Source: Ruminococcus sp. (lineage in GTDB: Bacteria > Bacillota > Clostridia > Oscillospirales > Acutalibacteraceae). From it: a DNA stretch of 44,950 nt. The DNA is taken from NCBI GenBank assembly GCA_022768065.1, contig JALELS010000008.1, positions 1 to 44,950 of the forward strand, written 5' to 3'. Numbering within the stretch: the first letter of the stretch is position 1; each line of letters starts with the position of its first letter. This document shows, in pieces, positions 11,733-29,597 of this stretch. The notes beneath the pieces were generated by a model that ran no database searches, was not told the DNA's origin, and was given only the letters and a program-made list of their open reading frames with translations. The position numbers and the translations under genes were made by a program.

Positions 11733-11816
11733 ATACGGAAAATACGGGAAAGCGAAAAAATTTTTCCTTACTTTATCGGCAAAATCCGATTTGCCGCCGC
11801 CATTTGCCGACTGCCG

Positions 11817-11898: not shown

Positions 11899-11904
11899 AA
11901 AGAC

Positions 11905-12036: not shown

Positions 12037-12072
12037 ACGGTGTTTTTTATAATTCGCACAGCGGGAAAGGGA

Positions 12073-12822: not shown

Positions 12823-12881
12823 GCTGATTTACTCCTTTAGCGGAACGCTACTGTACAAATAGTCTAATTTGATATATAATT

Positions 12882-14969: not shown

Positions 14970-15718
14970 CACATATCCTCCCTGTATTTGCCTAAAATTC
15001 TCATCATTTCGTCCGATAAAACGTCCTTGTTTTTGTACACAAAAAGATTGTTTTTGATTGTCATACCCGTTCTTCCGCCGAGCTTTCCCTCAATAAGGCA
15101 AAGCCACGGCGCTTTTTCCGGTGACGCCGCAACAAGGCGCAGAGCTTTCGGCTCGATTTTATATTCTTTCATTGCCTCCATAGTTTCAAAAAGGCGCTCG
15201 GGGCGAATACATACGCAAAGTCTGCCGCCGAATTTAAGTAGCCTTGACGCGGCCTTGGTTATGTCGCGCAGATTGCAGAGAGTTTCGTGACGGGCTATTT
15301 TTTCGTTTTCCTTTTGGCTTTTTATTCCGGCGTTTTCCGCCTTGTACGGGGGATTCATCGTTATGACGTCGAATTTTCCGCACGGCAATATCCGCGGAGC
15401 CTCTTTTAAATCCGCATTGTATACAAAGAGTTTGTCCTGCAAATTGTTTGCCCTGACGGAGCGCGTAAGCTGACCGCACGCCTTTTCCTGAATTTCAACC
15501 GCGGATATTTCTTTTCCGCAGCCGTCCCTGCACCAGAGCATGGGAATTATGCCGCAGCCCGTGCCGAAATCGCAGCATATGTCGTATCGCTTGGGCGACG
15601 CAAAATCGGCAAGCAGCAGTGCGTCCGTGCCGAATGTGTGCTCTTTTGACACAACAAGCCCCAGCTCTTTGCTCAAATATTCAATATGTTCGTCGTTGCA
15701 GAGTGTAATATCGGTCAT
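14969..15718 (-). CDS. trmN6: tRNA1(Val) (adenine-37-N6)-methyltransferase family protein
   Basis: The 249-residue protein is a class I methyltransferase: FGTDALLLADF near residue 27, the S-adenosylmethionine loop DFGTGCGIIP (about 47-56), and the catalytic NPPY tetrapeptide in ITMNPPYKAENAG (about 120) that marks N6-adenine methylation. The order and spacing match the TrmN6/YfiC (YabB) family, which commonly lies next to rsmI in Firmicutes. Its start codon follows the stop of the upstream nuclease gene without any gap, and its own stop overlaps the rsmI start. The precise tRNA target in this organism is inferred from the family. Confidence 0.9.
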   Translation of the reverse strand: MTDITLCNDEHIEYLSKELGLVVSKEHTFGTDALLLADFASPKRYDICCDFGTGCGIIPMLWCRDGCGKEISAVEIQEKACGQLTRSVRANNLQDKLFVYNADLKEAPRILPCGKFDVITMNPPYKAENAGIKSQKENEKIARHETLCNLRDITKAASRLLKFGGRLCVCIRPERLFETMEAMKEYKIEPKALRLVAASPEKAPWLCLIEGKLGGRTGMTIKNNLFVYKNKDVLSDEMMRILGKYREDM

Positions 15719-17326
15719 TTATCTGTCCCACTTGTCGCAAAGCGCGATTATTTGATCCGCAAATTTTGCAAGGTCCTTGTTTGCGCCGCCCTCGTTGTGC
15801 GCTATTACCGTTTCGAGACGCTTCTGTGCGGAGAGCAGTCTTTCGTAAACCGTGCTTACGCGGCAAGAGGAGTTTTGCGAAGCTGTATTTTTAACTATTT
15901 TTTCACGGTTTCCCTGTGTAAGTATCTTGTTTTCGGTGAGGCTGTATTCCTCGCCGTTGTACGGAGCGCTCGCGGGAAGCCCCAGCTCGTCGCGCAGACG
16001 TGCGGCGTATATTTCACATACCTCGTCCTCGCCGTGATTTACAAACACGTGCTTCGGGGGAGCTTTAAAGCTCTTTATCCATTTTAATAAGCCCTCGTTG
16101 TCGGCGTGGCCGCTTATGCCGTGAAGCTGCTCTATTTCTGCGCTGATGTGGATTTTTTCGTCAAAGAGTTTTACGTCCGTCGCACCGTCGGTTATGGCTC
16201 TGCCGAGCGTTCCCGCGGCTTGGTAGCCGACAAAAAGAATCGTACATTCGGGGCGCCACAGATTGTGCTTTAAATGATGGCGGATTCTGCCTGCCTCGCA
16301 CATTCCGCTTGCCGAAATTATGACCTTCGGAGCGGGGTCGGAGTTTATCGCCTTTGACTCCTCGCTTGTAACGGAGACGTAAAGATTGGGAAATGCTATC
16401 GGATTTATCCCGTTTTCGATAAGCGACGCCGCCTCGTCGTCGAAGTCGGAGTAGCTGTCGCAAAATACGTTGGTTGCTTCCACTGCAAGGGGGCTGTCCA
16501 CATATACGGGGAAGTCGTTGTAGTTTTTGAGCATACGCTCTTCTTTTATCTGCCTTATGAAGTATAAAAGCTCCTGGGTTCTGCCGACGGCAAACGACGG
16601 TATAACGACATTGCCGCCGCGCGCAAAGGTGCGGTCGAGTATGGGCACAAGCTGCGAAATGTAGTCGAGCCTTTCGCTGTGGCTGCGGTCGCCGTATGTG
16701 CTTTCGGTTATAACGTAAGTGGCGTCGGTCAGATATTGCGGATCGCGTATTATCGGCTGGTCGGTATTGCCTATGTCGCCGGAAAACACGATTTTTTCGG
16801 TTTCACCGTTTTCGGTGACGTTTATTGTAATGCTTGACGAGCCCAAAAGGTGACCCGCGTCGGTAAAGCTTATGGATATGCCGTCAAAAATATGGTAATC
16901 CACGCCGTATTCGCATCTTAAAAACTGTGAACAGCATTTTTGAGCGTCCTCTACCGTGTAGAGCGGAACATATCCTTTATCGCCCGAGCGTTTTGCCCTT
17001 CGGTTGCGCCACTGAGCCTCAAACTGTTGTATGTGCGCCGAATCCTCAAGCATAATCTTGCACAGCTTTGCCGTGGACGCGGTGGCGTAAATCGGGCCTT
17101 TGTATCCGTTTGCCGTAAGGTACGGCAGCTTGCCGGAATGGTCAATGTGCGCGTGGGTCAGAAAAATGCAGTCTATATCGGCAGGAGATATCGGAATATC
17201 GCGGTTCTTGTAGGTGTCGGGACCCTGCTCCATACCGCAGTCTATCAAAATATTTTTGCCGCAGGCGGTGAGAAGCGTACAGCTCCCCGTGACTTCGTGT
17301 GCGGCTCCTAAGAATATAAGATTCAT
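15719..17326 (-). CDS. Beta-CASP metallo-beta-lactamase-fold ribonuclease
   Basis: The 535-residue protein carries the metallo-beta-lactamase metal motif THAHIDHSG (His58, His60, Asp62, His63), AGHLLGS, FSGDIG, and the beta-CASP motifs STYGDRSH, FAVGRTQE, ASGMCEAGRIRHHL and SGHADNEGL. This is the KH-less CPSF73/YSH1-like bacterial type rather than RNase J. It probably cleaves RNA in the cytoplasm with two zinc ions. The last 70 residues after the core are less conserved. It heads a four-gene run (this gene, trmN6, rsmI, small membrane protein) whose genes abut or overlap. AAGGAGCGG precedes the ATG. I see no clear promoter in the 173 bp upstream. Confidence 0.9.
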   Translation of the reverse strand: MNLIFLGAAHEVTGSCTLLTACGKNILIDCGMEQGPDTYKNRDIPISPADIDCIFLTHAHIDHSGKLPYLTANGYKGPIYATASTAKLCKIMLEDSAHIQQFEAQWRNRRAKRSGDKGYVPLYTVEDAQKCCSQFLRCEYGVDYHIFDGISISFTDAGHLLGSSSITINVTENGETEKIVFSGDIGNTDQPIIRDPQYLTDATYVITESTYGDRSHSERLDYISQLVPILDRTFARGGNVVIPSFAVGRTQELLYFIRQIKEERMLKNYNDFPVYVDSPLAVEATNVFCDSYSDFDDEAASLIENGINPIAFPNLYVSVTSEESKAINSDPAPKVIISASGMCEAGRIRHHLKHNLWRPECTILFVGYQAAGTLGRAITDGATDVKLFDEKIHISAEIEQLHGISGHADNEGLLKWIKSFKAPPKHVFVNHGEDEVCEIYAARLRDELGLPASAPYNGEEYSLTENKILTQGNREKIVKNTASQNSSCRVSTVYERLLSAQKRLETVIAHNEGGANKDLAKFADQIIALCDKWDR

Positions 17327-17429
17327 AATTTCCGCTCCTTTTTAAATAGTGGCGCCTGTCGCCCCTGTCTTTGCTTATATGGTAACATAAATCACGGTAA
17401 AAATCCAGTATTAAGCATTATGGGGGCAA

Positions 17430-17471
17430 AGAAAAACAGCGCGGCAGTAATTTTAACCGCCACGCTGTTAA
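17430..17471 (-). terminator. Terminator of the P-type ATPase gene
   Basis: On the minus strand AACAGCGTGGC pairs with GCCGCGCTGTT (one mismatch) and is followed by TTTTCTTTG. Confidence 0.8.
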
Positions 17472-17499
17472 AGTTATAAATTTTTGCCGTATCGCAAAA

Positions 17500-20178
17500 T
17501 TATTTTACGGCTTGCTTTTTGGCCTTTCTCTTTGCCGAGGCACGTTCTATCGCCTTAACAAGCTCAACGAGAGGAATTATAAGGAATGCAAGACCGAGAG
17601 CCGTGAAGAATTCACGAACGTCAATGGTGGTGAAATCAAAAGCATTTGCAAGGAACGGTACTTCTATAACGAGCGCAGTCGTTATGAGAGAGATAACCGT
17701 TGAACCGAAAATGTATTTGTTGAAGCTGCCGTGCAAAAGCATTGATACAGCCGAGCCGCGCTGCGAACGCATATTGAACGAGTGGAATATCTCGCACATC
17801 GACATAGTGAGGAATGCCATTGTCATACCGTCGGCACTCTCGGTAATTTCCCATCTGCCGGCTTCCATAAAGTGACCTATAAAGTATGCGGCAAGCGTAA
17901 GAATAGTTACCAAAATGCCCTGATACGCTACGTCGAAGCCTACTCCGCCGGCAAAGATGCCGTCCGTGGATTTACGCGGCGGACGTTTCATAAGGTCCTT
18001 TTCGCCCTTTTCCATACTGAGGGCAAGCGCCGGGAAGCAGTCCGTAACAAGGTTTATCCAAAGCAGATGTACGGGCTTGAGTATGGTAAATCCGAGCAGG
18101 TTTGCGGTGAATATTGCCATTACCTCGCTGAGGTTTGACGAGAGCAGGAACTGAATGGATTTTCTGATATTGTCGTAGATGCGTCTGCCCTCTTCCACGG
18201 CAGATACTATGGTTGCGAAATTGTCGTCGGCAAGAACCATATCGGCGACGTTCTTTGTTACGTCGGTACCGGTAATGCCCATTCCAACGCCTATATCGGC
18301 GCTCTTAATGGAGGGGGCGTCGTTTACGCCGTCGCCGGTCATTGCGGTTATCATACCGCGGCTCTTCCATGCGTTGACTATTCTTACCTTATGCTCGGGC
18401 TGAACACGCGCATATACGGAATACTGCTTGACCTTTTCGTGGAATTCCTCGTCGGAGATCTCGTCAAGCTCCGCACCCGTTATAGCCTCGCTCTTATCTT
18501 TGATTATGCCGAGCTCCAAGGCTATTGCTACGGCGGTATCCTTGTGGTCGCCGGTTATCATTATGGGTCTTATGCCGGCTTCGCGGCATTCCTCTATTGC
18601 CGCCTTAACTTCGGGTCTTACGGGGTCTATCATACCGACAAGACCGCAGAATATAAGGTCGTTTTCGATTTTTTCGGGCGACTGATCTTCGGGAACACAG
18701 GAGAGCTGTTTGTATCCGCAGGCGAGCACACGAAGAGCTCTGTCGGCGAATTCCTTGTTCTTTTTGAGTATGGCTTCTCTGTCGCCGTCGGTAAGGGGGC
18801 GAACCTCGCCGTCTTTGAATATCTTTGTGCAGTGCTTTAATATTTCGTCGGGAGCACCCTTGGTAAACTGCAAAACACCGTCTGCCGTCTTGTGAATTGT
18901 GGACATCATTTTACGGTTGGAATCAAACGGAGCTTCGCCGACTCTCGGTGCGCTCTTTGAGAGAGCGTCTTTTTTCATACCGAGTGACATTGCGTATGCC
19001 ACGAGAGCCATTTCGGTGGGCTCGCCTACAAGATTTCCGTTTTCGTCGGTGTTTACATCGGTGCAGAGCGCCATGCCCTCCGCAAGCATCTTTTCGTTTT
19101 CACAGTAGTGCTCTACTACGGTCATTTTATTTTGGGTGAGCGTGCCGGTTTTATCTGAGCAAATTATCTGCGCGCAGCCGAGAGTTTCAACCGCGGTGAG
19201 CTTACGGATAATTGCGTTTTTCTTTGACATATTTGTAACGCCTATCGAAAGCACAACCGTAACTACCGCCGCAAGTCCCTCGGGGATTGCTGCAACGGCG
19301 AGTGAAACCGCAAGCATAAACGAAGAGAGCAGGAAGTCAAGGTTTAATGTAGTGCCGGTTATAAGTGCTCTGACAATATCAAAAGCGAACATAAATACGC
19401 ATATGCCGAGGACTATAAAGCTGAGGATTTTTGAGAGCTGACCGAGCTTTTTCTGAAGCGGCGTCTGTTCATCCTTTGCGCTTGAGAGCGCACCTGCTAT
19501 TTTGCCCATTTCGGTGTCCATACCTATGTTTGTTATAACGGCTTTGCCTCTGCCGTAAACAACGGTTGAACCCATATACATCATATTTTTGCGGTCGCCG
19601 AGGGGTACGTCCTTTTGCCCCTCAAGACCTATGGCTTTTATGAATTTGTTTACGGGGACGGATTCGCCCGTAAGCGCCGATTCCTCGATTTTAAGGCTTG
19701 CGCTTTCAAAGATTCTGCCGTCCGCCGGAACAGCGTCGCCGGCTTCAAGCAGTACAACGTCGCCAACGGTAAGGTCTTCGCTCGGTATTTCGCATACCTT
19801 GCCGTCACGCAAAACCTTTGTTGTTGCGGCAGCCATCTTTTGAAGAGCCTCGATTGCCTTTTCGGCTTTGCTCTCTTGGTAGACGCCGAGTATGGCGTTT
19901 ACTATAACGACAAACATAATGATGATAACGTCCGAGGGGAACTCTTTTTGCAATACGGAGGTTATCGCCGAAATTACCGCCGCGGCGATGAGTATAATTA
20001 TCATCGGGTCGGCAAACTGCGAGAGAAAACGCAAAATCAGCGGCGTTTTCTTGCCCTCGGCAAGCTTGTTTTTGCCGGTTTCGGCAGAGCGGCTGCGCGC
20101 CTGCTCGGAAGTGAGACCGTTTTCGGTGCTTTTTACGTCGCCGAAAACATCGGAAGAGCTTTCGAGATAGTATTTCAT
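17500..20178 (-). CDS. P-type cation ATPase, SERCA/PMCA-like (P2), probably Mn2+ or Ca2+ export
   Basis: The 892-residue pump is complete: cation-transporter N-domain, two helices, actuator TGES loop, phosphorylation site DKTGTLT (Asp342), nucleotide-binding KGAPDEIL, hinge TGDGVNDAPSIKSADIG and six C-terminal helices. Ion ligands of the calcium-pump type are visible: AIPEGLAAV in M4, SSNLSEVMAIF in M5 and INLVTDCFPALALS in M6 (Asn, Thr and Asp kept). It would use ATP to push divalent cations out of the cytoplasm. The gene lies behind a yybP-ykoY manganese riboswitch, and such switches often control P-type ATPases and Mn exporters, so manganese efflux is likely, with calcium as an additional or alternative substrate. 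GGGAGGA lies about 6 nt upstream of the ATG. Confidence 0.92.
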   Translation of the reverse strand: MKYYLESSSDVFGDVKSTENGLTSEQARSRSAETGKNKLAEGKKTPLILRFLSQFADPMIIILIAAAVISAITSVLQKEFPSDVIIIMFVVIVNAILGVYQESKAEKAIEALQKMAAATTKVLRDGKVCEIPSEDLTVGDVVLLEAGDAVPADGRIFESASLKIEESALTGESVPVNKFIKAIGLEGQKDVPLGDRKNMMYMGSTVVYGRGKAVITNIGMDTEMGKIAGALSSAKDEQTPLQKKLGQLSKILSFIVLGICVFMFAFDIVRALITGTTLNLDFLLSSFMLAVSLAVAAIPEGLAAVVTVVLSIGVTNMSKKNAIIRKLTAVETLGCAQIICSDKTGTLTQNKMTVVEHYCENEKMLAEGMALCTDVNTDENGNLVGEPTEMALVAYAMSLGMKKDALSKSAPRVGEAPFDSNRKMMSTIHKTADGVLQFTKGAPDEILKHCTKIFKDGEVRPLTDGDREAILKKNKEFADRALRVLACGYKQLSCVPEDQSPEKIENDLIFCGLVGMIDPVRPEVKAAIEECREAGIRPIMITGDHKDTAVAIALELGIIKDKSEAITGAELDEISDEEFHEKVKQYSVYARVQPEHKVRIVNAWKSRGMITAMTGDGVNDAPSIKSADIGVGMGITGTDVTKNVADMVLADDNFATIVSAVEEGRRIYDNIRKSIQFLLSSNLSEVMAIFTANLLGFTILKPVHLLWINLVTDCFPALALSMEKGEKDLMKRPPRKSTDGIFAGGVGFDVAYQGILVTILTLAAYFIGHFMEAGRWEITESADGMTMAFLTMSMCEIFHSFNMRSQRGSAVSMLLHGSFNKYIFGSTVISLITTALVIEVPFLANAFDFTTIDVREFFTALGLAFLIIPLVELVKAIERASAKRKAKKQAVK

Positions 20179-20231
20179 ATTTTTCCTCCCTGTTTTTTTC
20201 GGTGAGCAGCCGTTAGCAGCCGTTTTTTAAG

Positions 20232-20350
20232 AAAAAAGACCTTCGACAGATTTTTGCTCTGCCGAAGGTCTTGCTACCTTAATAAGGCTCGGTGACCAGA
20301 AGCCGTAAGGCGACATGATGTTGACCACCGGGTAAAAGCTACTCCCCTTC
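20232..20350 (-). promoter_or_regulatory. yybP-ykoY manganese riboswitch with terminator
   Basis: On the minus strand the leader has the family hallmarks: GAAGGGGAGTAGC at the 5' end, GGTCAACATCATGTCG and GGTCACCG in the middle arms and TAGCAAGACCTTC at the 3' end. P1 forms from GAAGG (20346-20350) and CCTTC (20264-20268). The same 3' strand is the first arm of a terminator (20232-20272) that pairs AGACCTTCGGCAGA with TCTGTCGAAGGTCT and ends in six T. Metal binding would hold P1 and prevent termination, so Mn2+ should switch the ATPase on. Confidence 0.93.
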
Positions 20351-20373
20351 AAAGGAATATCATATTATCTGCG

Positions 20374-20402
20374 ATAATAACAGAAAAATGAACTTTTGTC
20401 AA
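20374..20402 (-). promoter_or_regulatory. Promoter of the riboswitch-ATPase transcript
   Basis: On the minus strand TTGACA (20397-20402), 17 bp, TATTAT (20374-20379); transcription would begin about 17 nt before the aptamer. Confidence 0.85.
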
Positions 20403-20417
20403 GTATTTTAAAAATAA

Positions 20418-21599
20418 TTACTCCGCGCCGAATAAAACGTAGTTGTTTACGTTTTTGTCGTCAAGCTCGGAAATAATCGAGCTGTCGTCGATGACCGGTA
20501 TAAATCCGCCCGTCTGATAGTTTTCGTCAAGCTTTGAGTTTAACAGCGGTATACAGTCCGAAACCAATGTCTTTTCGTCGGTGGTTTCGGCGGAATATGT
20601 TTTGTCGCCGTACGAAAAACCGTCCCTCTGCGACGATTTTCTGAAATCCACAGCCACAAAATCGGCGGCGCTGTCAAAAAGCGAACCGTCATAGCGCGCG
20701 GAATTTCCGCCGAGTGCGTCCGCTGCACTCAGCATAACGCAGAGCGGCTTGTCGCCGAGCTCGTTTTTAACCTTTTCTATAAACGAATGTAAAACCGCGT
20801 TGCGGCTTTCTATGCTCTTTTCTTCACCCGAGAATACCGCCTTGTCAAGATAAATGCTCTCGGGAAATTCCACGGAATCGAGTATAACGGCGTCAACTCC
20901 GAGCGACGAAACCTCGGTTACAATACTCAAAAGGTATTTCTCGGCAACGGGGGAATAGGGGTTAAGCCACGGTTCGCCGTCGTGCTGAGCGCTGTTGTCG
21001 AGCCACAGCGTACCGTCCGAATTTGTCACGGCGGCAGCCGCGCCGAGATGCGACGCCGCAACGCTGTCCTCATAGCAATAAATTCTTGCGATTATTTTAT
21101 AACCGGCGCTTTTAAGCCTGTCGATTGTCGCAATCGCATTCTGATAAGCCTTTGACGACGCGCCTATATCATTTGCCGTGCCGACGGATGAGACGTAATT
21201 GAGATAACCGTCCTTTGTCTTAAAATCAACTACCACGGCGTTTGCCTTTGTTTCGCCGAGCTCCGTTTTAAAAAGGTCAAAGGCTATGCCGCCGTCAAGA
21301 ACGTCGTCGGGCATATGCAGTGCGCGCAGCTTTCCGTCGTATTCTGCCGGGACTCCCGTGAGCTCGTGCTCATACGGCTTTTTCGACAGGTTGATTGAAA
21401 CCGCGGCGATAACAAATACGAGCATAAAGAATATGACGAGGAAAACCGCAAAGGCGATTTTTTCGCGTTTCTCTTTTTTCTTTCGGGTGCGGCTTTCGCC
21501 TATCGCATATGATGTACCCGAGCGCCTGCCCGGATAATTTTTTGAAAACGGATAATAGCTCTTTTTACGGGGCTTTATATCTCTGTTGTCAAACGCCAT
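20418..21599 (-). CDS. Membrane-anchored glycoside-hydrolase-like protein (DUF4015-type)
   Basis: The 393-residue protein has a basic, Arg/Lys-rich cytoplasmic tail (1-45), one membrane helix (about 47-70) and an outer domain resembling the putative glycoside-hydrolase family DUF4015: NAVVVDFKTKDGYLNYVS, IARIYCYEDSVAA, EPWLNPYSPVAEKYLLS, GVDAVILDSVEFP and CVMLSAADAL, in the order expected of a TIM barrel. The DUF4015 family is thought to act on extracellular polysaccharide, but no substrate is known. It is the last gene of the Rnf-like operon, 13 bp after the RnfA-like gene with AAGGA upstream, so its product may work with that membrane complex. No terminator is obvious before the riboswitch promoter. 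Confidence 0.75.
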   Translation of the reverse strand: MAFDNRDIKPRKKSYYPFSKNYPGRRSGTSYAIGESRTRKKKEKREKIAFAVFLVIFFMLVFVIAAVSINLSKKPYEHELTGVPAEYDGKLRALHMPDDVLDGGIAFDLFKTELGETKANAVVVDFKTKDGYLNYVSSVGTANDIGASSKAYQNAIATIDRLKSAGYKIIARIYCYEDSVAASHLGAAAAVTNSDGTLWLDNSAQHDGEPWLNPYSPVAEKYLLSIVTEVSSLGVDAVILDSVEFPESIYLDKAVFSGEEKSIESRNAVLHSFIEKVKNELGDKPLCVMLSAADALGGNSARYDGSLFDSAADFVAVDFRKSSQRDGFSYGDKTYSAETTDEKTLVSDCIPLLNSKLDENYQTGGFIPVIDDSSIISELDDKNVNNYVLFGAE

Positions 21600-21612
21600 T
21601 TTTTACGGTCCT

Positions 21613-22206
21613 TTACAATGATAATCCTTTGCCCGAGACGCCCGAAAAGGCGAGCGCCAAAATCGAAACATATATAAATACTGCCGGCGTGCCCTTAAAG
21701 CACTCCGGAATGTTCTTGTTTTCAACTAAGCGGCGCAGTCCGAAATTTATCATAAGCACCGCAACTATAAAGGCAAGACCCGAGCCTATACCGACGCCTA
21801 TTGCCTCGGCTATGCCGAAGGTCGCGCGGTAATTTATAAACGGAACGGCAAGCACAAGAGTGTTAAACGCCGCTACGCCCAGTCGCCTTACCGTACGTTT
21901 TTTTGCTTTGAAAACCGCCTTCAGCAGAACGAGCATAAAAACGTATAATACGCATATCACAAGTAAAAAGATAAGCGAATGTTGTATTTCGCTGAGAGAT
22001 GATATAAACGGTATCTGCTCAAGCAGTACGCAAAAAATACTGCCGAATGTCGAAAAGAACGTGATAAATGCCGTAAGCGGAAAAAGCTGTTTCGGCTTTG
22101 CCGACATTCTCACGGCCTCCGAGGCGCCGTAACCGCCCGTAAATATCAGGTTTTGAAGTACAAATGCGTACATCGCCGCCGAAAAAAGATTTGCTATGGC
22201 GCTCAT
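21613..22206 (-). CDS. RnfA/NqrE-like membrane protein lacking the iron-sulfur cysteines
   Basis: This 197-residue, six-helix protein aligns with RnfA: FVLQNLIFTGGYGASEAV at the start, FNTLVLAVPFIN in the middle, GIGSGLAFIVAVLMINFGLRRL and CFKGTPAVFIYVSILALAFSGVSG at the end (compare the RnfA ending [22 protein letters not shown]). In RnfA/RsxA two cysteines, in GLCPF and TNCAVLG, share a [2Fe-2S] cluster with RnfE inside the membrane. Here these positions are Ser29 and Thr116, so the cluster cannot form in the usual way. The gene overlaps the RnfE-like gene by 4 nt (ATGA). Family membership is clear in the C-terminal half; function is open. Confidence 0.75.
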   Translation of the reverse strand: MSAIANLFSAAMYAFVLQNLIFTGGYGASEAVRMSAKPKQLFPLTAFITFFSTFGSIFCVLLEQIPFISSLSEIQHSLIFLLVICVLYVFMLVLLKAVFKAKKRTVRRLGVAAFNTLVLAVPFINYRATFGIAEAIGVGIGSGLAFIVAVLMINFGLRRLVENKNIPECFKGTPAVFIYVSILALAFSGVSGKGLSL

Positions 22207-23273
22207 TCGTCCTCACCGCCCTTCGGTTCTTCTGCCTTTTTGCCGCTCTCTTTGTCGTTGCTTTTGTCCGCGCCGTCGGCGGAAACGGAGCCGTCGCCGT
22301 CAAAAGAGGTGTACTGCTTGTATTTTTCAAGCTCTGTGAGTATCTCGTCAAATTCCGAGGTGTAATCAAAGTTTTTATCCTTTTGCCTTTCGGTATTGAC
22401 GCTGCCGTTTTTATCGGCATTTCTTTTGCCGCCGCCGTTTTTTGCTTCCGATGAAGAAGCGGACGTCTTTTTGGAGCTCTTTGCGGTGCTTTTCCGCTTC
22501 GAAGTTTTATTTTTCTTATCGGTACGCGGTTTTGACGGAGCTTTTTCGTCGGGCTGTGTTTCTTCGCCCACGTCGAAAAAGTCGAGATCCGTGTCAAGAA
22601 ATTCGCGCAGCTTTATAACGTGCGACTGCTTGACCTCCGAGAGGTCAAATGAAGCCTCGGGGTGTGTTTCGGGAAATTTCCTGTTTATTATCGCCTTTAA
22701 TGCCGCCGCCATAAATCCGAGCAGTAAAAATCCGCCGAACGGCATCAGAAGCCCGGGCAGCTTTACCGGGATATTCAGCTTTACGCTGTAAACCGTGCCG
22801 CTGCCGAGTATTTCACGGATAACGCCCACTATGAGTATTACCGCGGCGTAGCTGAAGCCGGCCGAAATCGCGTCGAGGGCCGTGGCTTTGAAATTGTGTT
22901 TAACCGCGAACCTTTCGCAGTGCAGCGCGATAAGCGAATTTACCGCAAGCAGCGGCAAAAATATACCTGCGCTCGCCGTTTCGTTGGGGGCGAGATATTT
23001 AAACAGCAAAAACAGCGGTATGTTTATGAGCAAACCCAATATTGCATATATCATTTTGCGCACGCTGCCCTTGAGCTTTTTCATGAGCAGGCAGGCGAGA
23101 CATTCTATAAGCAAAAGCTCGACAAATGATACAAACGAGAGAATTATTGCGGATTTGAGCGATACCGCCATGGCAACAACGGGTGCAATGCCTATGGCTT
23201 CAAACAGCACGGGATTTTTGATTATTGCGCTGTTTCTGATAACGGAAACGCTTTTTTTCTTTTTATCAGGCAT
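22203..23273 (-). CDS. RnfE/NqrD-like membrane protein with a long charged C-terminal tail, lacking the iron-sulfur cysteines
   Basis: Residues 15-230 of 356 match RnfE: IIKNPVLFEAIGIAPVVAM, AGIFLPLLAVNSLIALHCERFA, TALDAISAGFSYAA and VGVIREILGSGTVY. The cysteines that bind the cluster in RnfE (GLCPLLAV and VTNCIVVG) are Ala30 and Ser113 here. After the last helix comes a tail of about 125 residues (231-356), rich in Lys, Ser, Asp and Glu and probably cytoplasmic, that ordinary RnfE lacks. I start at 23273 (MPDKKKK), which overlaps the end of the RnfD-like gene by 8 nt; the open frame extends further upstream but only as an antisense-like Arg/Ser-rich stretch inside that gene. Confidence 0.75.
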   Translation of the reverse strand: MPDKKKKSVSVIRNSAIIKNPVLFEAIGIAPVVAMAVSLKSAIILSFVSFVELLLIECLACLLMKKLKGSVRKMIYAILGLLINIPLFLLFKYLAPNETASAGIFLPLLAVNSLIALHCERFAVKHNFKATALDAISAGFSYAAVILIVGVIREILGSGTVYSVKLNIPVKLPGLLMPFGGFLLLGFMAAALKAIINRKFPETHPEASFDLSEVKQSHVIKLREFLDTDLDFFDVGEETQPDEKAPSKPRTDKKNKTSKRKSTAKSSKKTSASSSEAKNGGGKRNADKNGSVNTERQKDKNFDYTSEFDEILTELEKYKQYTSFDGDGSVSADGADKSNDKESGKKAEEPKGGEDE

Positions 23274-24363
23274 TTTCGGCACCGCCTTTCTCGTTTTCGA
23301 GCGCTTTCTCTTCAAGCTTGTCCGCGAGAGCGGCGCGCACCTTTGCGTTTTCGGCCGAGACGAGCCGTCTTTCGCGTTTTGTGAGCGGAAGCTTGTCAAA
23401 TGCGGTGACAAGTCCGTTTGCAAGCAGTACGGCAAAAACCGTGCTGTCCTCAAATTTGCCCACGGAACGCATTATCATACACATAAGCCCTGCCGCCGCG
23501 CCGTAGCATATCCTTGCGTAAAAGCTTTTGGGCAGAAGCTTGTCGTCGGTCAAAAAGAATACCGATGAAAACAAAAGCGTTCCGCCGCAAATCTCCATAA
23601 ACGCCGATACGAAGCGACCCGTCAGCACACGTGGAAACAAGAGCGCGTAGACAAAGCAGACCGCGAGAAAAGAGGCGGAGACGGTAAAGTTTTTCGGTCG
23701 CCTTACGGCGAGGAATATCAGCGCTCCGAAAAGCGCCACAGCGCAGGTTGTGCCCATAGGACCCGAAACCGAGCCGACAAGCACGTCCACATAATTCAAA
23801 AGACCCGTACCGACCGAGTTTTTTTGCGAGAGCATATACGAAATTGAGGTTCCGGGGAAAAATCCCTGCCCTCCCGAAACGGCGGTCGTGCCGGACGAGA
23901 GTATCGCCGGATAAGAAAATACCTTGTCCGGCATACATATTGTAACAAAGGCTATACCTGCCGCCGCCGGCGTAAACATATGAGAGCGCGCATTGCCGAA
24001 CGGAAGCTTTGCGGCAATAACGGCGAATGCCGAGGCTATGCACGGCAGATAATACGGAGCGGACGCAGGCAGGCAAAGGGCTGTCATAAGCCCCGTAGCC
24101 ACAGCCGAGAGGTCGGAAACCGAAGAGCGAATTTTAAAAATAAACGAGCCTGCGACTTCGCAGAACACGGCTGTCAACACCGAAAACACCATAAGGCGCA
24201 CGGCTCTGCCGCCGTAGTAATACCAAGCCATCACAGCCGGAACGGCCATAAGGATAAGCATATCGGCAAAGTATCTGCGTGTTGTAGAAATTTCACTGCG
24301 CGCTTTTGCGGCGCTCTCGGCTGAAATGCCGGCAGACGTTTTGCTTTGTTCCAAAAAATTCAC
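23266..24363 (-). CDS. RnfD/NqrB-like membrane protein without a visible FMN-attachment motif
   Basis: The 365-residue protein has about ten hydrophobic segments and follows RnfD: LSAVATGLMTALCLPASAPYY, FTPAAAGIAFV (compare FNPAMIGY), VLVGSVSGPMGTTCAVALFGA (compare GNIGGSLGETSALA), CGGTLLFSSVFFLTDD and STVFAVLLANGLVTAFDKL. In RnfD an FMN is bound covalently to the Thr of an SxAT motif; the matching segment reads AVSGGQGFF (161-169), with Gln166 where Thr is expected. It is the first gene of the operon. The predicted start is a GTG at 24363 with a weak ribosome site, so the N-terminus is uncertain. In Rnf complexes this subunit helps pump Na+ or H+. Confidence 0.75.
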   Translation of the reverse strand: MNFLEQSKTSAGISAESAAKARSEISTTRRYFADMLILMAVPAVMAWYYYGGRAVRLMVFSVLTAVFCEVAGSFIFKIRSSVSDLSAVATGLMTALCLPASAPYYLPCIASAFAVIAAKLPFGNARSHMFTPAAAGIAFVTICMPDKVFSYPAILSSGTTAVSGGQGFFPGTSISYMLSQKNSVGTGLLNYVDVLVGSVSGPMGTTCAVALFGALIFLAVRRPKNFTVSASFLAVCFVYALLFPRVLTGRFVSAFMEICGGTLLFSSVFFLTDDKLLPKSFYARICYGAAAGLMCMIMRSVGKFEDSTVFAVLLANGLVTAFDKLPLTKRERRLVSAENAKVRAALADKLEEKALENEKGGAENA

Positions 24364-24384
24364 CTGTTTTCCATATTTTATTCA

Positions 24385-24413
24385 TTGCGAAACAAGCGTT
24401 CCGACAATATGAT
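24385..24413 (+). promoter_or_regulatory. Promoter of the mecA-like gene
   Basis: TTGCGA at 24385-24390, a 17-bp spacer and TATGAT at 24408-24413. I see no comparably good promoter for the divergent Rnf-like operon in the same 86 bp. Confidence 0.55.
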
Positions 24414-24449
24414 ATAAAGAGATAATTTTTATTTGGGGGTGGCTTTCCT

Positions 24450-24989
24450 ATGAATATACATAAAAGCCGCGGGGACAGAGTGATAGTCGAAATCTCGTCA
24501 AACGAGCTGTCGCGATATGAGCTTTGCCCCGAAGAGATGGACTGTAAAAATCCGAAAACCCGACGCCTTATAAACGACGTAATGCTGAAAGCGCAAAAGG
24601 AGCTTCGCCGTGATATAACCTCGTTCGACAAAATGAGCGTGGACGTTATGGAGACGGACGAAGGGTGCATTATAATACTCTGCTTTAAGGGCGGAAAAAA
24701 CAAAAAACCGTTTTCGGGATATATCTGTGTTATGCCGCAGACGGACGATATTTTTAAGCTTGCAAAGGGGCTTTTGCCTCACCGCGAAAAGATAAGACAG
24801 GCGAGCCTTTTTGCCGACGGCAAAAATTATGCCGTATGTGTTTTGCCGTATGCGGTCTATTCAAGGGATATATTTTTTGTACTCAGCGAATTCGGAGACA
24901 CAATGAAGGCGTCGCCCGGAACAAACGAGTACTTTCTCGAACACAAAAAGCTTATAAGCCGCGATTTTATATCGTCGCTGACTTCTTAA
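24450..24989 (+). CDS. MecA-like adaptor protein
   Basis: The 179-residue protein is shorter than typical MecA (about 220) but keeps both parts. The N-terminal region (VIVEISSNEL, then CPEEMDCKNPKTRRLIND) resembles the substrate-binding domain of clostridial MecA. The C-terminal region (SLFADGKNYAVCVLP, FFVLSEFGDTM, EYFLEHKKLISRDFI) matches the domain that binds ClpC. MecA hands proteins to the ClpCP protease in the cytoplasm, for example the competence factor ComK in Bacillus. The target here is unknown. GGGGGTGG lies upstream of the ATG. The 3' end overlaps the convergent rpe gene by 23 bp. Confidence 0.65.
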   Translation: MNIHKSRGDRVIVEISSNELSRYELCPEEMDCKNPKTRRLINDVMLKAQKELRRDITSFDKMSVDVMETDEGCIIILCFKGGKNKKPFSGYICVMPQTDDIFKLAKGLLPHREKIRQASLFADGKNYAVCVLPYAVYSRDIFFVLSEFGDTMKASPGTNEYFLEHKKLISRDFISSLTS

Positions 24990-25626
24990 ATTCGGCTATT
25001 GTCTTTTTGATATCGTCGCTGCCGAAGAGCGCGCTTCCCGAAACAAATGCGTTGGCGCCTGCCTTTGCGGCGACGGATATTGTGTCTTTATTTATTCCGC
25101 CGTCAACCTCGATGTCGATATTTTTGAGCCCGCGGCGGCAAATTTCATTTTTTACCGCTGTGACCTTGGGCATCATATCCTCCATAAAGCTCTGACCGCC
25201 GAAGCCGGGTTCAACCGTCATTATAAGTACAAGCGAGAGCTTGTCGAGGTACGGATATATCTCTTCAACGGGCGTTCCGGGCTTTACCGAAAGACCCGCC
25301 TTTTTGCCGAGCGACAGAATTTCGTCTATCGTCTTTTCCGTATCGGAGTCGGACTCCGTGTGGAACGTGATTATGTCGGAGCCTGCCTTTGCAAAGTCGG
25401 GCACATATTTGTAAGGGTCGCTTATCATAAGGTGCACGTCAAAGGGGAGCTTTGTCGCTTTTCTTATACACTTTACTATGGGCGCGCCGAGCGTGATGTT
25501 CGGAACAAAGTGCCCGTCCATAACGTCTACGTGAATCATATCCGCGCCGCATTCTTCCATTTTTTTAAGCTCGCTCTCAAGATTGCCGTAATCGCTTGAG
25601 AGAATTGACGGTGATATTTTTACCAT
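24967..25626 (-). CDS. rpe: Ribulose-phosphate 3-epimerase
   Basis: At 219 residues this is a complete Rpe. The TIM-barrel signatures are all present: SPSILSSDYGNL, HVDVMDGHFVPNITLG, DVHLMISDP, ITFHTES, VEPGFGGQSF and DIEVDGGIN, including the catalytic Asp pair and metal-binding His residues. It interconverts ribulose 5-phosphate and xylulose 5-phosphate in the pentose phosphate pathway. AAAAGGAG lies 7 nt before the ATG. The end of the gene overlaps the oppositely oriented mecA-like gene by 23 bp, and no terminator is visible for either. Confidence 0.95.
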   Translation of the reverse strand: MVKISPSILSSDYGNLESELKKMEECGADMIHVDVMDGHFVPNITLGAPIVKCIRKATKLPFDVHLMISDPYKYVPDFAKAGSDIITFHTESDSDTEKTIDEILSLGKKAGLSVKPGTPVEEIYPYLDKLSLVLIMTVEPGFGGQSFMEDMMPKVTAVKNEICRRGLKNIDIEVDGGINKDTISVAAKAGANAFVSGSALFGSDDIKKTIAEFKKSATI

Positions 25627-25709
25627 AATTTCTCCTTTTTATAACGTTGTCGGTTTCCCTTAGGAATCCGAATAATCTTAACACAAAGACTTTAGTTAAA
25701 AATTAACTG

Positions 25710-26552
25710 TCACGCCGCCGGAACTGTGTCGCCTAAAACAGTATCGCTTTCGGGCGCATTGTCCGAGGCGCCGGAGCCGTCCGATACGGACTCCGCTTCA
25801 CCCGTTGTTTCCGCAGAAACGGTGGTTTCGGGCTGAGCCGTCGCTTTTTCGGTGACGGGCTGAACGGCGGTGGTTGCCGTTTCGGGCGAAGATGTCGCCT
25901 GAATGGAGTTTATATAGTAGCTGCCGTCTTTTTCCCTTAAAGTGATTTTCATATATTTGTCGGGCTCGGGAGCTACCATATCGCCCTCGCTGTTTTGTGC
26001 CCATTGATCGCCCGCAAGGTAGCCGACGGTCAAAACCACGGAGCCGCTCTTTTTCTGAACCTTTACAACGTCGGGCGTGTATGTCGGCACAAGGCCCGTA
26101 AGAGGGATAGAGTACATATGCTTTGCCGAATCGTAGGTAAATGTGTAGCCGTAGCCGTTTACCGTGGCGTGCACGGGCTCTGTGTCCGTACCGAAGAGCT
26201 TGTGGAATTCGGCGGTTACGTCGTCTTCGGGAATCATCATACCGTTTTCGCCGTACTCGTATTTGTCGGGCGAGAGATTGCTTTTTAAAATAGACCAAAT
26301 GGAAATGTCTATAAGCTGATTTTTGTTTGCCTTTGTAATATCGTCAAACGGGTCGGGGTCGTTCATTACGACAGGCGTCAGCATGGTATTGTATTCCTCT
26401 ATGTTTTTGCTCTTGATTATTGCTTTTTTTGTGGCGTTTACCCCGGCGAGAATTACGCAGACAAGACCTATCACGGCAAATACCGTTATTATAAGGCCCA
26501 GGGGGAACGCCCATCGGTTTTTACGCTTTTTATTCACATCAGTCTCAGCCAT
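25710..26552 (-). CDS. Membrane-anchored protein of unknown function downstream of proA
   Basis: The 280-residue protein has a short basic cytoplasmic tail, one membrane helix (about 16-40), an outer domain of about 180 residues and a C-terminal Thr/Ser/Glu/Ala-rich tail (about 220-280) typical of surface-exposed linkers. The folded part contains ISIWSILKSNLSPDKYEYGE, GYGYTFTYDSAKHMYSIPLTGL and VVLTVGYLAGDQW and resembles no family I know. It lies 15 bp after proA with GGAGAG before its ATG, so it is probably transcribed with proBA, yet nothing in it suggests a role in proline synthesis. Confidence 0.75.
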   Translation of the reverse strand: MAETDVNKKRKNRWAFPLGLIITVFAVIGLVCVILAGVNATKKAIIKSKNIEEYNTMLTPVVMNDPDPFDDITKANKNQLIDISIWSILKSNLSPDKYEYGENGMMIPEDDVTAEFHKLFGTDTEPVHATVNGYGYTFTYDSAKHMYSIPLTGLVPTYTPDVVKVQKKSGSVVLTVGYLAGDQWAQNSEGDMVAPEPDKYMKITLREKDGSYYINSIQATSSPETATTAVQPVTEKATAQPETTVSAETTGEAESVSDGSGASDNAPESDTVLGDTVPAA

Positions 26553-26567
26553 TCTGACTCTCCTAAC

Positions 26568-27812
26568 TTATCTTATCTGACCGTTTCCGAATATCTCGTA
26601 TTTAAACGACGTGAGCTGCGGCAGACCGAGAGGACCTCTCGCGTGGAGCTTTTGCGTGGATATGCCTATTTCCGCTCCGAAGCCGAATTCGCCGCCGTCG
26701 GTAAAGCGCGTGCTTGCGTTGCGATAGACCGCCGCCGCGTCCACTCTCGACATAAATTCGTTTGCCGCCTCGTCGTTTTCCGTGACGATACATTCGCTGT
26801 GGCCTGTTCCGTATTTATAGATATGCTCTATGGCTTCGTCGATATTATCGACTATCTTTACCGACATTATGTAGTCGAGGTACTCGCGACCCCAGTCGTC
26901 GTCGGAGGCCTCCTTTATATCGGGAAGTATCTCTTTTGCCGCCTTGTCGCCGCGCAGCTCCACATTTTTTTCGTCAAGCCGCTTTTTAATGAGCTTCAGC
27001 GCCTTCTCGGCAACGTCTTTATGGATTAAAAGACTTTCGGCGGCGTTGCATACTGACGGCCGCGAGGTTTTGGCGTTAAATATAATATCCGCCGCCATAT
27101 TGAGGTCGGCGTCCTTATCGACGTAAATATGGCAGTTGCCGACGCCCGTCTCTATAACGGGAACGGTGGAGTTTTTGACTACCGTGCCTATGAGCCTTGC
27201 GCTGCCGCGCGGAATCAGCACGTCTACGTATTTGTTCATGGTCATAAGCTCGTTGGCGCTCTCATGAGAAATGTCGGTTATAAACTGTATGCAGTCTTCC
27301 GGTAAGGGCGATTTTTTGAGGGCGGCGCGCATTACATTAAATATTGCGGTGTTTGAGTGTATTGCCTCTTTGCCGCCGCGAAGAACCGAGCAGTTGCCCG
27401 ATTTAAGGCAAAGCGAAGCCGCGTCGGACGTTACGTTGGGGCGCGCCTCAAATATAACGGCGATAACTCCGAGCGGTACGCTCACTTTTTTTACCCTGAG
27501 ACCGTTAGGCCTTGTTATTTCCGAGAGCGTTTTGCCGACGGGGTCGGGCAGGTCGGCAACTTCGATAACGCCCTTTGCCATACCGTCTATCCTCTCGGAG
27601 GAGAGAAGAAGCCTGTCTAAAAGGACCTTCGGCAGACCGTTTTCCTCGGCGGCTTTCATATCTTTTTTGTTTTCGCCGAGAATATAATCTTTATTGTTTT
27701 TAAGCTCTTCGGCTATAAGTAAAAGAGCCTTGTTTTTATCGTTTGTCGAGGCAATCGAGAGGTTTTTCTCCGCCTCTTTTGCGTTTCGGCATTTAAGCTC
27801 GGTATCAGTCAT
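26568..27812 (-). CDS. proA: Gamma-glutamyl phosphate reductase (glutamate-5-semialdehyde dehydrogenase)
   Basis: The 414-residue enzyme matches ProA throughout: DRLLLSSERIDGMA, the PLGVIAVIFEARPNVTSDAASLC segment, SGNCSVLRGGKEA, VLIPRGSARLI, IETGVGNCHIYVD and the catalytic Cys in TSRPSVCNAAESLL, then EFGFGAEIGISTQKLHARGPLGL near the C-terminus. It reduces gamma-glutamyl phosphate to glutamate 5-semialdehyde with NADPH, the second step of proline synthesis. It follows proB after 6 bp; its ribosome site AAGGA lies in the end of proB. Confidence 0.95.
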   Translation of the reverse strand: MTDTELKCRNAKEAEKNLSIASTNDKNKALLLIAEELKNNKDYILGENKKDMKAAEENGLPKVLLDRLLLSSERIDGMAKGVIEVADLPDPVGKTLSEITRPNGLRVKKVSVPLGVIAVIFEARPNVTSDAASLCLKSGNCSVLRGGKEAIHSNTAIFNVMRAALKKSPLPEDCIQFITDISHESANELMTMNKYVDVLIPRGSARLIGTVVKNSTVPVIETGVGNCHIYVDKDADLNMAADIIFNAKTSRPSVCNAAESLLIHKDVAEKALKLIKKRLDEKNVELRGDKAAKEILPDIKEASDDDWGREYLDYIMSVKIVDNIDEAIEHIYKYGTGHSECIVTENDEAANEFMSRVDAAAVYRNASTRFTDGGEFGFGAEIGISTQKLHARGPLGLPQLTSFKYEIFGNGQIR

Positions 27813-27818
27813 TTTGTC

Positions 27819-28610
27819 TCAGTCCTTTTTACCTACAAAAAATGTTCCTATTTGCTTGCCGTCGAGAGCCTTGTATATGTCCTCGGGAGCAGAGCCGTTC
27901 ATAACTATCATATCTATTCCCGCGTCCATGGCTATTTGCGCCGCGTGCAGCTTTGTAACCATTCCGCCGGTGCCGAATTTTGAGCCGTGACCGCCCGCAA
28001 AGCCTATAAGCTCGTCTGTAATCTCGGTTACGGTGGGTATGAGTTCGGCGTCCTCGTCGACTGTGGGATTTCCGTTATAAAGCCCGTCGATGTCGGTGAG
28101 GATTATCAGCGCGTCGGCACCTATGAGCTTTGCGACTATCGCCGAGAGGCAGTCGTTGTCGCCGTATACTATTTCTTCAACGCCTATTGCGTCGTTCTCG
28201 TTGACTACGGGGATAGCGCCGTATGAAAAGAGCTTGTCAAAGGTGTTTATGAGATTTTTGCGCCTTTCGGGGGACTCCACGTCGCTCTTTGTAAACAGAA
28301 GCTGACCTATTTTGTGGCCGTATTCGCTGAACATCTTGTCATACATATACATAAGCTCGCATTGACCCACCGTGGACGCCGCCTGCCTGCCGGGGGTGTC
28401 TTTCGGGCGCTCCGAGAGACCGAGCTTTCCCGTGCCGACGCCTATTGCGCCGGAGGAGACGAGAGTAACCTTGATGCCCGAATTTTCAATATCCGAGAGC
28501 ACCGAGATAAGTTTATGTATTCTTCTTATATTTGTTTTTCCGTTGTCATATACAAGTGTGGAAGTTCCCACTTTGACAACGAGCCTTTTGACATCCTTTA
28601 ATACCGCCAA
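27819..28610 (-). CDS. proB: Glutamate 5-kinase without PUA domain
   Basis: The protein shows the amino-acid kinase signatures VVKVGTSTLV, VSSGAIGVG, NENDAIGVEEIVYGDNDCLSA and GTGGMVTKLHAA. It phosphorylates glutamate at the gamma carboxyl, the first and usually feedback-controlled step of proline synthesis. I place the start at a TTG (28608-28610), because GGGAGG lies 7 nt upstream and the homology begins just after it; this gives 263 residues. The longer in-frame ATG at 28664 coincides with the expected transcription start and has no ribosome site. The C-terminal PUA domain found in E. coli ProB is absent, as in many Firmicutes. It is the first gene of a proB-proA operon. Confidence 0.93.
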   Translation of the reverse strand: MAVLKDVKRLVVKVGTSTLVYDNGKTNIRRIHKLISVLSDIENSGIKVTLVSSGAIGVGTGKLGLSERPKDTPGRQAASTVGQCELMYMYDKMFSEYGHKIGQLLFTKSDVESPERRKNLINTFDKLFSYGAIPVVNENDAIGVEEIVYGDNDCLSAIVAKLIGADALIILTDIDGLYNGNPTVDEDAELIPTVTEITDELIGFAGGHGSKFGTGGMVTKLHAAQIAMDAGIDMIVMNGSAPEDIYKALDGKQIGTFFVGKKD

Positions 28611-28669
28611 GACATATCCTCCCACAAGCCCCGTCTCACAGGGCGAGAAATAATATTTATACACTGTAA

Positions 28670-28698
28670 ATTATATCATACGAAAAGGGATTTAACAA
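28670..28698 (-). promoter_or_regulatory. Promoter of proBA
   Basis: On the minus strand TTGTTA (28693-28698), 17 bp, TATAAT (28670-28675). Confidence 0.8.
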
Positions 28699-28739
28699 TA
28701 TAAAATATTTTTGGGCGCGCCTTTAAAAATTTAACCGAA

Positions 28740-28785
28740 TTGTAATTTTTTTGTATACAGTTTTGTAATTTCGGCGCTGTATAAA
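28740..28785 (+). promoter_or_regulatory. Direct repeats and -10 box upstream of the response regulator
   Basis: TTGTAAT, TTGTATA and TTGTAAT start at 28740, 28751 and 28763, that is 11 and 12 bp apart, followed 10 bp later by TATAAA (28780-28785). Repeats with about 11-bp spacing ending just upstream of the -10 box are the classic layout of OmpR/PhoB-type binding sites. CTGTATAAAAA also repeats at 28777 and 28790. Autoregulation by the next gene is the simplest reading. Confidence 0.5.
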
Positions 28786-28907
28786 AATACTGTATAAAAA
28801 ACGGCTCTCAAAACGGCGGTGCAAAATATTTGTATTCCGTTTTGCGCGCAAATCTGTTAAAATAAAGGCAGCCGAACAGGTAAAAAATACGGAAGAGGGG
28901 AATTTTA

Positions 28908-29597
28908 ATGTATAACGTACTTGTATGCGACGACGATAAAGCGATACTCGATTCGCTTGAAATATATTTAAATCTTGGGGGGTATAAGGTTTTTAAGGCG
29001 GAAAACGGCAGGCAGGCTCTGAAAATCGCGGAGGAAAACGACCTGCAATGCATAATTCTCGATATAATGATGCCCGACCTCGACGGTCTTAATGCAACGC
29101 TGAAGCTGCGCGAGAGCAAAAACATACCCATAATACTGCTCTCCGCCAAGAGCGAGGATACCGATAAGATAACGGGCCTGTCATTCGGAGCGGACGACTA
29201 TGTAACAAAGCCGTTTAATCCGCTTGAGCTTATGGCGCGCGTAAAATCGCAGATAAGGCGATATGTGTCGCTCGGCAGTATGGAGAAAAGAGACAGCCTT
29301 ATAGTTACGGGCGGTCTCGCTCTCGATCTCGATTCAAAAGAGGTTACGCTCGACGGCGAAAACATAAAGCTTACCGCCACGGAATACGGCATACTTGAAT
29401 ATCTTATGAAAAATATGGGCAGAGTTCTCTCCACAAATCAGATTTATGAAGCTGTGTGGAAAGAACCGTCGTTTCAGACGGAAAAAACCGTAACCGTACA
29501 TATACGCAGAATAAGAGAAAAAATAGAGATAAATCCCAAAGAACCCAAGTATTTAAAGGTGGTGTGGGGCATTGGATACAAAATTGAAAAGCTTTAA
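28908..29597 (+). CDS. OmpR-family response regulator
   Basis: The 229-residue protein has a receiver domain (1-118: acidic VCDDD, phosphorylation site Asp52 in ILDIMMPD, Ser/Thr in LLSAKS, KPFNPLEL) and a winged-helix DNA-binding domain (about 135-229: LTATEYGILEYLM, VHIRRIREKIE, VWGIGYKIEKL). It resembles VanR/PhoP-type regulators of Firmicutes. The kinase gene begins inside its last 26 bp, so the pair is co-translated. GAGGGGA lies 7 nt before the ATG. Confidence 0.93.
   Translation: MYNVLVCDDDKAILDSLEIYLNLGGYKVFKAENGRQALKIAEENDLQCIILDIMMPDLDGLNATLKLRESKNIPIILLSAKSEDTDKITGLSFGADDYVTKPFNPLELMARVKSQIRRYVSLGSMEKRDSLIVTGGLALDLDSKEVTLDGENIKLTATEYGILEYLMKNMGRVLSTNQIYEAVWKEPSFQTEKTVTVHIRRIREKIEINPKEPKYLKVVWGIGYKIEKL

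Follow-up and report, generated by a model that had tools for sequence, protein, structure and literature searches.

What does the membrane core of an Rnf complex do once the groups that carry its electrons are gone? This question is raised by three overlapping genes, here called the window operon, in a 44,950-nucleotide stretch of a Ruminococcus sp. genome (assembly GCA_022768065.1, contig JALELS010000008.1), the whole of which we refer to as the window. In RnfA and RnfE, four intramembrane cysteines hold a shared [2Fe-2S] cluster. A first-pass annotation had described the three genes as relatives of RnfD, RnfE and RnfA that have lost these cysteines, and had proposed selection for a non-redox role. 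Our analysis suggests a core without electron carriers that is kept by selection; an ancient redox pump may have taken on another function, perhaps as a simple transporter.

The window operon and its cofactor sites

The operon consists of the following genes.

23266-24363, minus strand: D-like (RnfD-like) gene, 365 amino acids, RnfD fold, PF03116
22203-23273, minus strand: E-like (RnfE-like) gene, 356 amino acids from the ATG at 23273, PF02508
21613-22206, minus strand: A-like (RnfA-like) gene, 197 amino acids, PF02508

The mechanically called open reading frame of the E-like gene extends to 23453, and the ATG at 23273 was taken as the start; D and E overlap by 8 base pairs (bp), and E and A by 4 bp. 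The D-like protein matches Pfam PF03116 (NQR2_RnfD_RnfE) with 201.9 bits (cut-off 27.7), and the E-like and A-like proteins match PF02508 (Rnf-Nqr) with 95.1 and 70.5 bits (cut-off 23.8). The NCBIfam cut-offs are not reached by the D-like protein on rnfD (120.6 versus 207.05), the E-like protein on rnfE (70.8 versus 213.4) or the A-like protein on rnfA (46.6 versus 229.3), and all three score better on the rnf than on the nqr models. The Pfam matches, together with profile matches to chains of solved Rnf structures, bear out the description of the genes as relatives of RnfD, RnfE and RnfA; judged by sequence, they are true homologues of these subunits. Predicted structures of the A-like and D-like proteins retain the Rnf folds. 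A scan of positions 15000-30000 yielded zero Rfam families at the gathering threshold.

For each of the three proteins, a profile of its relatives was aligned to chains of solved structures. RnfA Cys25 falls on Ser29 of the A-like protein and the cysteine of the NC motif on Thr116 (chains 7zc6, 9eri and 8ahx), and the RnfE cysteine positions fall on Ala30 and Ser113 of the E-like protein, numbered from the ATG at 23273 (chains 7zc6 and 9eri). These are the residues that the first-pass annotation had placed there, and the window operon has none of the four [2Fe-2S] cysteines. The same annotation had read the flavin mononucleotide (FMN) acceptor of RnfD as the Gln of AVSGGQGFF, which proved to be a misalignment; the position of the FMN-Thr corresponds to Ser173 of FPGTSISYML, seven residues past that Gln (7zc6, 9eri, 8ahx). 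Its wider claim that the flavinylation motif of the D-like protein is lost still holds, with the Asp at -6 and the Ala at -1 both absent. The riboflavin Asn position of the D-like protein is Thr131, the riboflavin Asp position is kept as Asp273, the FMN-pocket Arg position is Ile137, and the N-terminus lacks a P[HYF] arm. The A-like protein retains Asn115 and carries the clade-specific residues Glu30, Arg33 and Cys59, and the E-like protein has Arg72 and Glu120 at the ion pair of the Na+ path. Loss of the Rnf membrane electron path in the window operon is well supported and nearly certain.

The assembly, which is 96.8% complete, contains four Rnf-Nqr matches: contig C25 has a pair with 225 and 204 bits, and the window pair scores 97 and 70 bits. 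C25 carries the order rnfCDGEAB, with the gene letters read from the sequences and domain matches for C, G and B. RnfC_N and FMN_bind have a single match each across the whole assembly, both on C25, where rnfB adjoins rnfA; beside the window operon there is no rnfB, rnfC or rnfG, as had been stated. Linked B, C and G genes elsewhere had been named as possible counter-evidence, and a complete Rnf does lie on another contig, but with a D, E and A set of its own. The genome's canonical RnfE (L005, 8110-8823, minus strand) has a cysteine-rich tail end (CCSCPMAASC).

Conservation and descent of related loci

Related loci were examined in three sets. The named set, from a collection of named records, holds 67 loci confirmed from 111 matching stretches, nearly all from uncultured or metagenome-assembled Clostridia or Oscillospiraceae. 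Its search patterns, QN[LF][IV]F[NTS]GGY and EAIR[MTI][SA][AS][KR]P[KR], were derived from close relatives of the window; Ser29, Thr116 and every site in E and D lie outside them. The second set is made up of 60 fetched loci and the window, and the third of 20 loci fetched for order-wide breadth. For many named loci (L126 and L105, for example), the contig is identical to that of a locus with a G handle; the sets are not independent and are not summed. The 30 canonical loci used for comparison are the window genome's own and the 29 best scorers among the new loci, which is not a random draw, and most of them are cut inside D.

D-like, E-like and A-like genes follow in this order in 67/67 named loci, counting L166, where the E-like gene lies in two frames, and L191, where the A gene is cut. 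The fetched stretches of these loci contain no C- or G-like match, and the sole B-profile match, in L145, has a low score of 41 bits and lies some 5 kb away from the operon. All four cluster cysteines are present in 30/30 canonical loci, while 22 of the named loci have none and 45 have one, which is always the first Cys of E. The claim that all four are lost is right for the window and the 22 loci and too strong for the 45. Cysteine counts in the second set (n = 61) are none in 28 loci, one in 27, two in 3 and four in 1, which is canonical, with 2 unscorable; the third set has one canonical locus with four cysteines, the other 19 having none (10) or one (9).

The FMN-Thr position is Ser in 62 of the 67 named loci, Ala in 4 and Gly in 1. 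Glu30, Arg33 and Cys59 of A occur in 67, 66 and 67 loci, where 30/30 canonical loci have Pro, Gly and Thr, and Cys119 of E occurs in 63/67, where all 30 canonical rows have Ala. The new lone cysteines A Cys59 and E Cys119 might form a replacement cluster site, although from topology they would be expected on opposite sides of the membrane. Tails of 98 to 326 amino acids are found in 61 of 68 E-like proteins, compared with 9 to 55 in the 30 canonical RnfE proteins; the remaining 7, the split L166 among these, have tails of 0 to 40. The window's E-like protein has an Rnf domain at about residues 1 to 200, followed by a charged tail of about 158 amino acids containing the stretch FDEILTELEKYK. 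This tail (22206-22680), with a recurrent F[DS]x[IM]LxEL, resembles a docking peptide for a partner protein.

Functional residues were compared in Acetobacterium woodii numbering, taken from the accessible parts of PMC11889175 and PMC9588780; the typed chain agrees except at Val106 of RnfA and Tyr105 of RnfE. Among the 67 loci, the RnfB contacts of A are nearly gone (Lys32 kept in 1, Arg154 in 0), as are the riboflavin contacts of D in part (Asn123 kept in 2, Asp249 in 25). Three residues of the Rnf Na+ path are kept throughout, namely A Asn112 (67/67), E Arg67 (67/67) and E Glu115 (66/66 aligned).

Sixteen loci of the second set open with an RnfC-like gene in the order C-D-E-A (L104 is cut inside E). 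A family of the same order, f26, adds 18 fetched loci, 15 without C and 3 with it. The C-containing loci with this type of gene are listed here.

L087-L093, L095, L097-L102, L104, L121, L199, L210 and L211: RnfC-like gene with two 4Fe-4S motifs and without the GxGGAxFP loop, in rpe-linked C-D-E-A operons

Two CxxCxxCxxxC motifs are found in 16/16 RnfC-like proteins of the second set and 3/3 of f26. The GxGGAxFP loop for FMN and reduced nicotinamide adenine dinucleotide (NADH), present in the window genome's canonical RnfC, is found in 0/16 and 0/3, and the proteins of L087 and L097 lack the N-terminal domain too. Three of the 16 were scanned for the FMN domain and score 26, 30 and 66 bits (cut-off 31.2), compared with 160 for the RnfC of L103. 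Contig ends truncate the loci L086, L094 and L096, leaving them uninformative on RnfC.

The 16 C-containing loci retain D Asn123 in 14, D Asp249 in 13 and E Arg67 in 12, with A Asn112 in 15/15. Position 32 of A is Arg in 10/15 and Lys in 1/15, which contradicts a universal loss of the RnfB-contact Lys32. In the 15 C-less f26 loci, Asn123 is kept in 10, Asp249 in 10, Glu115 in 11, and Arg67 and Asn112 in all 15. A two-step account, in which the riboflavin site goes when C goes, fits the window's family and fails in f26, where C-less loci keep Asn123 in 10/15. The FMN-pocket Arg of D is absent from 67/67 named, 16/16 C-containing and 15/15 C-less f26 rows.

According to PMC11889175, RnfD binds RnfC through its N-terminal and C-terminal arms. 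An N-arm motif, in which P[HYF] has a basic residue or Ser shortly after it, is present in 6/7 canonical-type and 16/18 C-containing rows. It occurs in 0/60 C-less named rows, with 7 more having fewer than 15 residues there, and in 0/11 C-less f26 rows, with 4 more of that kind. The canonical rows scored are those of six canonical loci and A. woodii, 27 rows being cut there; the seventh has SSSPN. The P[HYF] motif may be the RnfC-docking peptide of D. Where C is missing, this putative docking arm is missing as well, in every C-less row scored.

The ratio of nonsynonymous to synonymous substitution rates (dN/dS) was scorable in 14 of 15 pairs. It spans 0.06-0.25 in D, 0.06-0.31 in E and 0.04-0.18 in A, compared with 0.04-0.20 in rpe for the 13 pairs that have it. 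The D, E and A proteins are under purifying selection, and a pseudogene reading was rejected on these ratios.

A tree was built by a quick search from the concatenated sequences of D, E and A after the columns for the cluster, FMN and riboflavin sites had been deleted; its 60 rows include 25 of the 67 named loci. The C-containing and C-less loci form one branch (Shimodaira-Hasegawa-like approximate likelihood ratio test, SH-aLRT, 99 for 45 rows and 100 for 44), apart from canonical Rnf (96), and 26 C-less rows of the window's kind plus 3 others form one sub-branch (93). The window operon belongs to an rpe-linked Rnf branch with neither rnfB nor rnfG next to it. The core of the earlier proposal, selection for a role without the Rnf membrane electron path, is supported by the 67/67 loci, the purifying selection, the single clade and the loss of the RnfB contacts and the putative RnfC arm. 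Just below the C-containing/C-less branch lies L103, an otherwise complete rnf operon with 2/4 cysteines in place.

G053:C9:64000-82000, 7387-12850, minus strand: L103 operon with B, A, E, G, D and an RnfC extended at its N-terminus

L103 has Gly at two of the four cluster positions, and its A Cys is shifted to one residue before the usual place.

At E <= 1e-31, a threshold that would miss weaker relatives, the A profile matches 9 of 391 genomes from the class; each belongs to f1 or f26, two families of the window's order. Four A-profile matches read through one in-frame stop (G181:C139, G363:C6, G297:C160 and G422:C46), and genome G085 has six Rnf-Nqr matches, suggesting three pairs. Of 64 genomes tested for pairs, which had been picked for an A-like match, 10 hold the divergent pair alone; 7 of these have a fetched locus, always C-containing. 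Neither a canonical Rnf pair nor ApbE was found in G227, G252 and G041, which are 94-98% complete and have C-containing loci. A canonical-grade Rnf pair is also present in 21/21 genomes of the uncut C-less loci L065-L085, and a second A-profile match in 15/15 genomes of C-less f26 loci. The canonical pair in all 21 C-less genomes fits with use of an Rnf-made ion gradient, with shared ancestry or with a functional tie.

Transport and the competing explanations

The reading that we favour, and to which we give an even chance, sees in the operon a paralogue of the Rnf membrane core that has no redox function left and has been retained to move ions or a solute, the transport part being inferred. 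Electrons could not cross the membrane by the Rnf route in such a paralogue. The inverted A/E pair, which in Rnf switches between inward- and outward-facing states around the cluster and carries Na+, would persist as an alternating-access path without cofactors. The old cluster site would now be Ser/Thr flanked by Glu30 and Arg33, with Asn112 of A and Arg67/Glu115 of E remaining from the Na+ path. D, whose fold is like that of ammonium and urea transporters, may be kept as a structural or substrate-carrying partner. The cargo would most likely be Na+ or H+, whose movement might be coupled to that of a small solute. Candidate partners are the DUF4015 protein encoded next door and a cytosolic protein that binds the long E tail. 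We consider movement of ions or solutes the most likely function on the grounds that several residues of the path do not vary, that the folds are retained and that the A/E pair of Rnf is described as an alternating-access ion carrier. A more specific version, in which a redox pump core became a cofactor-free secondary transporter or exchanger running on ion gradients in many genera of one order, with the [2Fe-2S] site rebuilt as Ser/Thr-Glu-Arg, is put forward tentatively and leans towards the doubtful side.

The genes around the operon are as follows.

20418-21599, minus strand: DUF4015 putative glycosyl hydrolase, 393 amino acids, hydrophobic N-terminal stretch, 13 bp downstream of A
24450-24989, plus strand: MecA-like gene, divergent, upstream of the operon, PF05389 matched by its C-terminal part alone
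24967-25626, minus strand: rpe-like gene (ribulose-phosphate 3-epimerase), a recurrent flank

DUF4015 lies directly downstream in 41/67 named loci, 15/15 C-less f26 loci and 8/18 C-containing loci, which hints at a role in the cell envelope. In L078, L083, L184, L185, L186 and L187, the gene after A instead resembles a cysteine desulfurase, a name read from sequence. The divergent MecA-like gene recurs upstream of the operon in many related loci, and the 24967-25626 gene, which we take to be rpe from its sequence, has counterparts within the fetched stretch of 66/67 named loci.

Several observations weigh against the transport reading. The conservation of A Glu30 and Arg33 is partly built in because the search patterns include these residues, and the E-like protein of 45/67 loci retains its lone cluster Cys. 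The Na+ path is not simply retained: A Thr110 and Thr111 are lost, A Glu88 is kept in 0/67 loci and the A gate Leu22 is Tyr in 65/67. E Glu115 is Glu in just 3/16 C-containing relatives, and the conservation of Arg67/Glu115 could be structural. According to PMC11889175, no ion path is found in RnfD. In 26/67 named loci, no downstream DUF4015 was detected, though their D, E and A are kept.

A surviving redox function appears unlikely to us. It would take electrons from an RnfC-type 4Fe-4S protein through riboflavin, perhaps Ser-linked FMN, in D to an extracellular acceptor, with C-less operons borrowing the canonical RnfC. The 4Fe-4S motifs of the RnfC-like proteins (16/16 and 3/3) agree with this, as do riboflavin Asn123 and Asp249 in 14/16 and 13/16 C-containing loci and in 10/15 each of the C-less f26 loci, the canonical-grade pair in the 21/21 genomes, and the Ser at the FMN-Thr position in 62/67, given that ApbE, in the available text of PMC8238504, accepts Ser or Thr in [S/T]GA[S/T]-like motifs. 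In the window's own clade, however, Asn123 and Asp249 remain in only 2/67 and 25/67, the FMN-pocket Arg is absent from all derived rows, the putative RnfC arm is absent from the C-less rows scored, and the RnfC-like proteins lack the GxGGAxFP loop; moreover, the three genomes of 94-98% completeness with C-containing loci have neither a canonical pair nor ApbE. Borrowing of RnfC or RnfB is kept as a rival alone because the contact features are lost. The same losses (A Lys32 and Arg154 in the clade of the window, and the putative RnfC arm) speak against a modulator of canonical Rnf, whose subunits would join canonical ones in inactive or alternative complexes. C-less genomes do hold the canonical-grade pair (21/21) or a second A-profile match (f26, 15/15), in keeping with a modulator, but D, E and A have their own conserved operon and 10/64 genomes hold the divergent pair only (7 fetched, all C-containing); we find this explanation very improbable.

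A channel, or a structural scaffold that serves the DUF4015 protein and a cytosolic partner of the tail, in either case without a transport cycle, strikes us as rather improbable: DUF4015 lies directly downstream in 41/67 and 15/15 loci and the long E tail has its recurrent F[DS]x[IM]LxEL, but DUF4015 is undetected in 26/67 loci that keep D, E and A, and the polar residues found in the Na+ path and at the old cluster site are near-invariant, needlessly so for a scaffold. Decay of a duplicated Rnf operon, with the window operon as its relic, is hardly credible. A graded loss, of cysteines, of G and B, of the NADH loop of C and then of C, can be traced, and the E-like gene of L166 is split into two frames; yet dN/dS is 0.04-0.31, the gene order is kept in 67/67 loci and new clade-specific invariant residues have arisen.

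Significance and relation to known systems

How electron transfer is coupled to Na+ in Rnf and Nqr, through RnfD or through the RnfA/E pair, is disputed, with PMC9588780 and PMC11889175, in their accessible parts, on opposite sides. A natural A/E/D core without electron carriers, beside an intact pump, is a ready-made control for this question; if the core does move ions, the path would lie in A/E/D and the cluster would be needless for it. The C-D-E-A relatives, with Fe-S motifs and no NADH loop, allow the order of losses to be traced. In these gut bacteria, an rnf annotation, the published rnfDEA described below included, is no proof of energy conservation without a check of the cysteines. 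Among the literature matches listed, whose scope leaves out most subscription papers and all supplements, none gives a prior account of RnfA/RnfE cysteine loss in such an operon.

The window operon resembles RnfABCDGE in the full-length homology of D, E and A, the folds of D and A and the D-E-A order, as in rnfCDGEAB of the same genome. It differs in having no adjacent B, C and G, in the loss of the cysteines, the FMN-Thr motif, the RnfB contacts and the RnfC arm, and in the long E tail. From Na+-NQR (NqrB, NqrD, NqrE) it differs in that no nqrA, nqrC or nqrF is seen beside it, the cluster is missing and the rnf models score higher. The fold of the D-like protein alone resembles Amt/Rh ammonium channels and UT urea transporters.

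The NQR/RNF-like flavinylation-associated systems, as far as described in the accessible text of PMC8238504 and PMC10979944, likewise have partial Rnf/Nqr parts and an RnfD-like protein without the conserved FMN-Thr. In those systems, however, NqrB/RnfD is joined to an NAD-binding domain and has flavinylated partners, whereas the window's D, E and A have no NAD or FMN domain. An NqrB/RnfD-PF00175 fusion in an ApbE/FMN_bind cluster is not present in the window, where the D-like protein matches PF03116 only; the sole FMN_bind is on C25.

A probable counterpart is in Faecalibacterium duncaniae A2-165, for which the available text of PMC10781979 reports rnfDEA (CG447_09840-830) and rnfCDGEAB as two putative rnf operons for NADH:ferredoxin oxidoreductase. 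As in the window genome, a D-E-A operon occurs there besides a complete rnfCDGEAB; the difference is that it is labelled redox. The F. duncaniae rnfDEA is probably the same module as the window operon.

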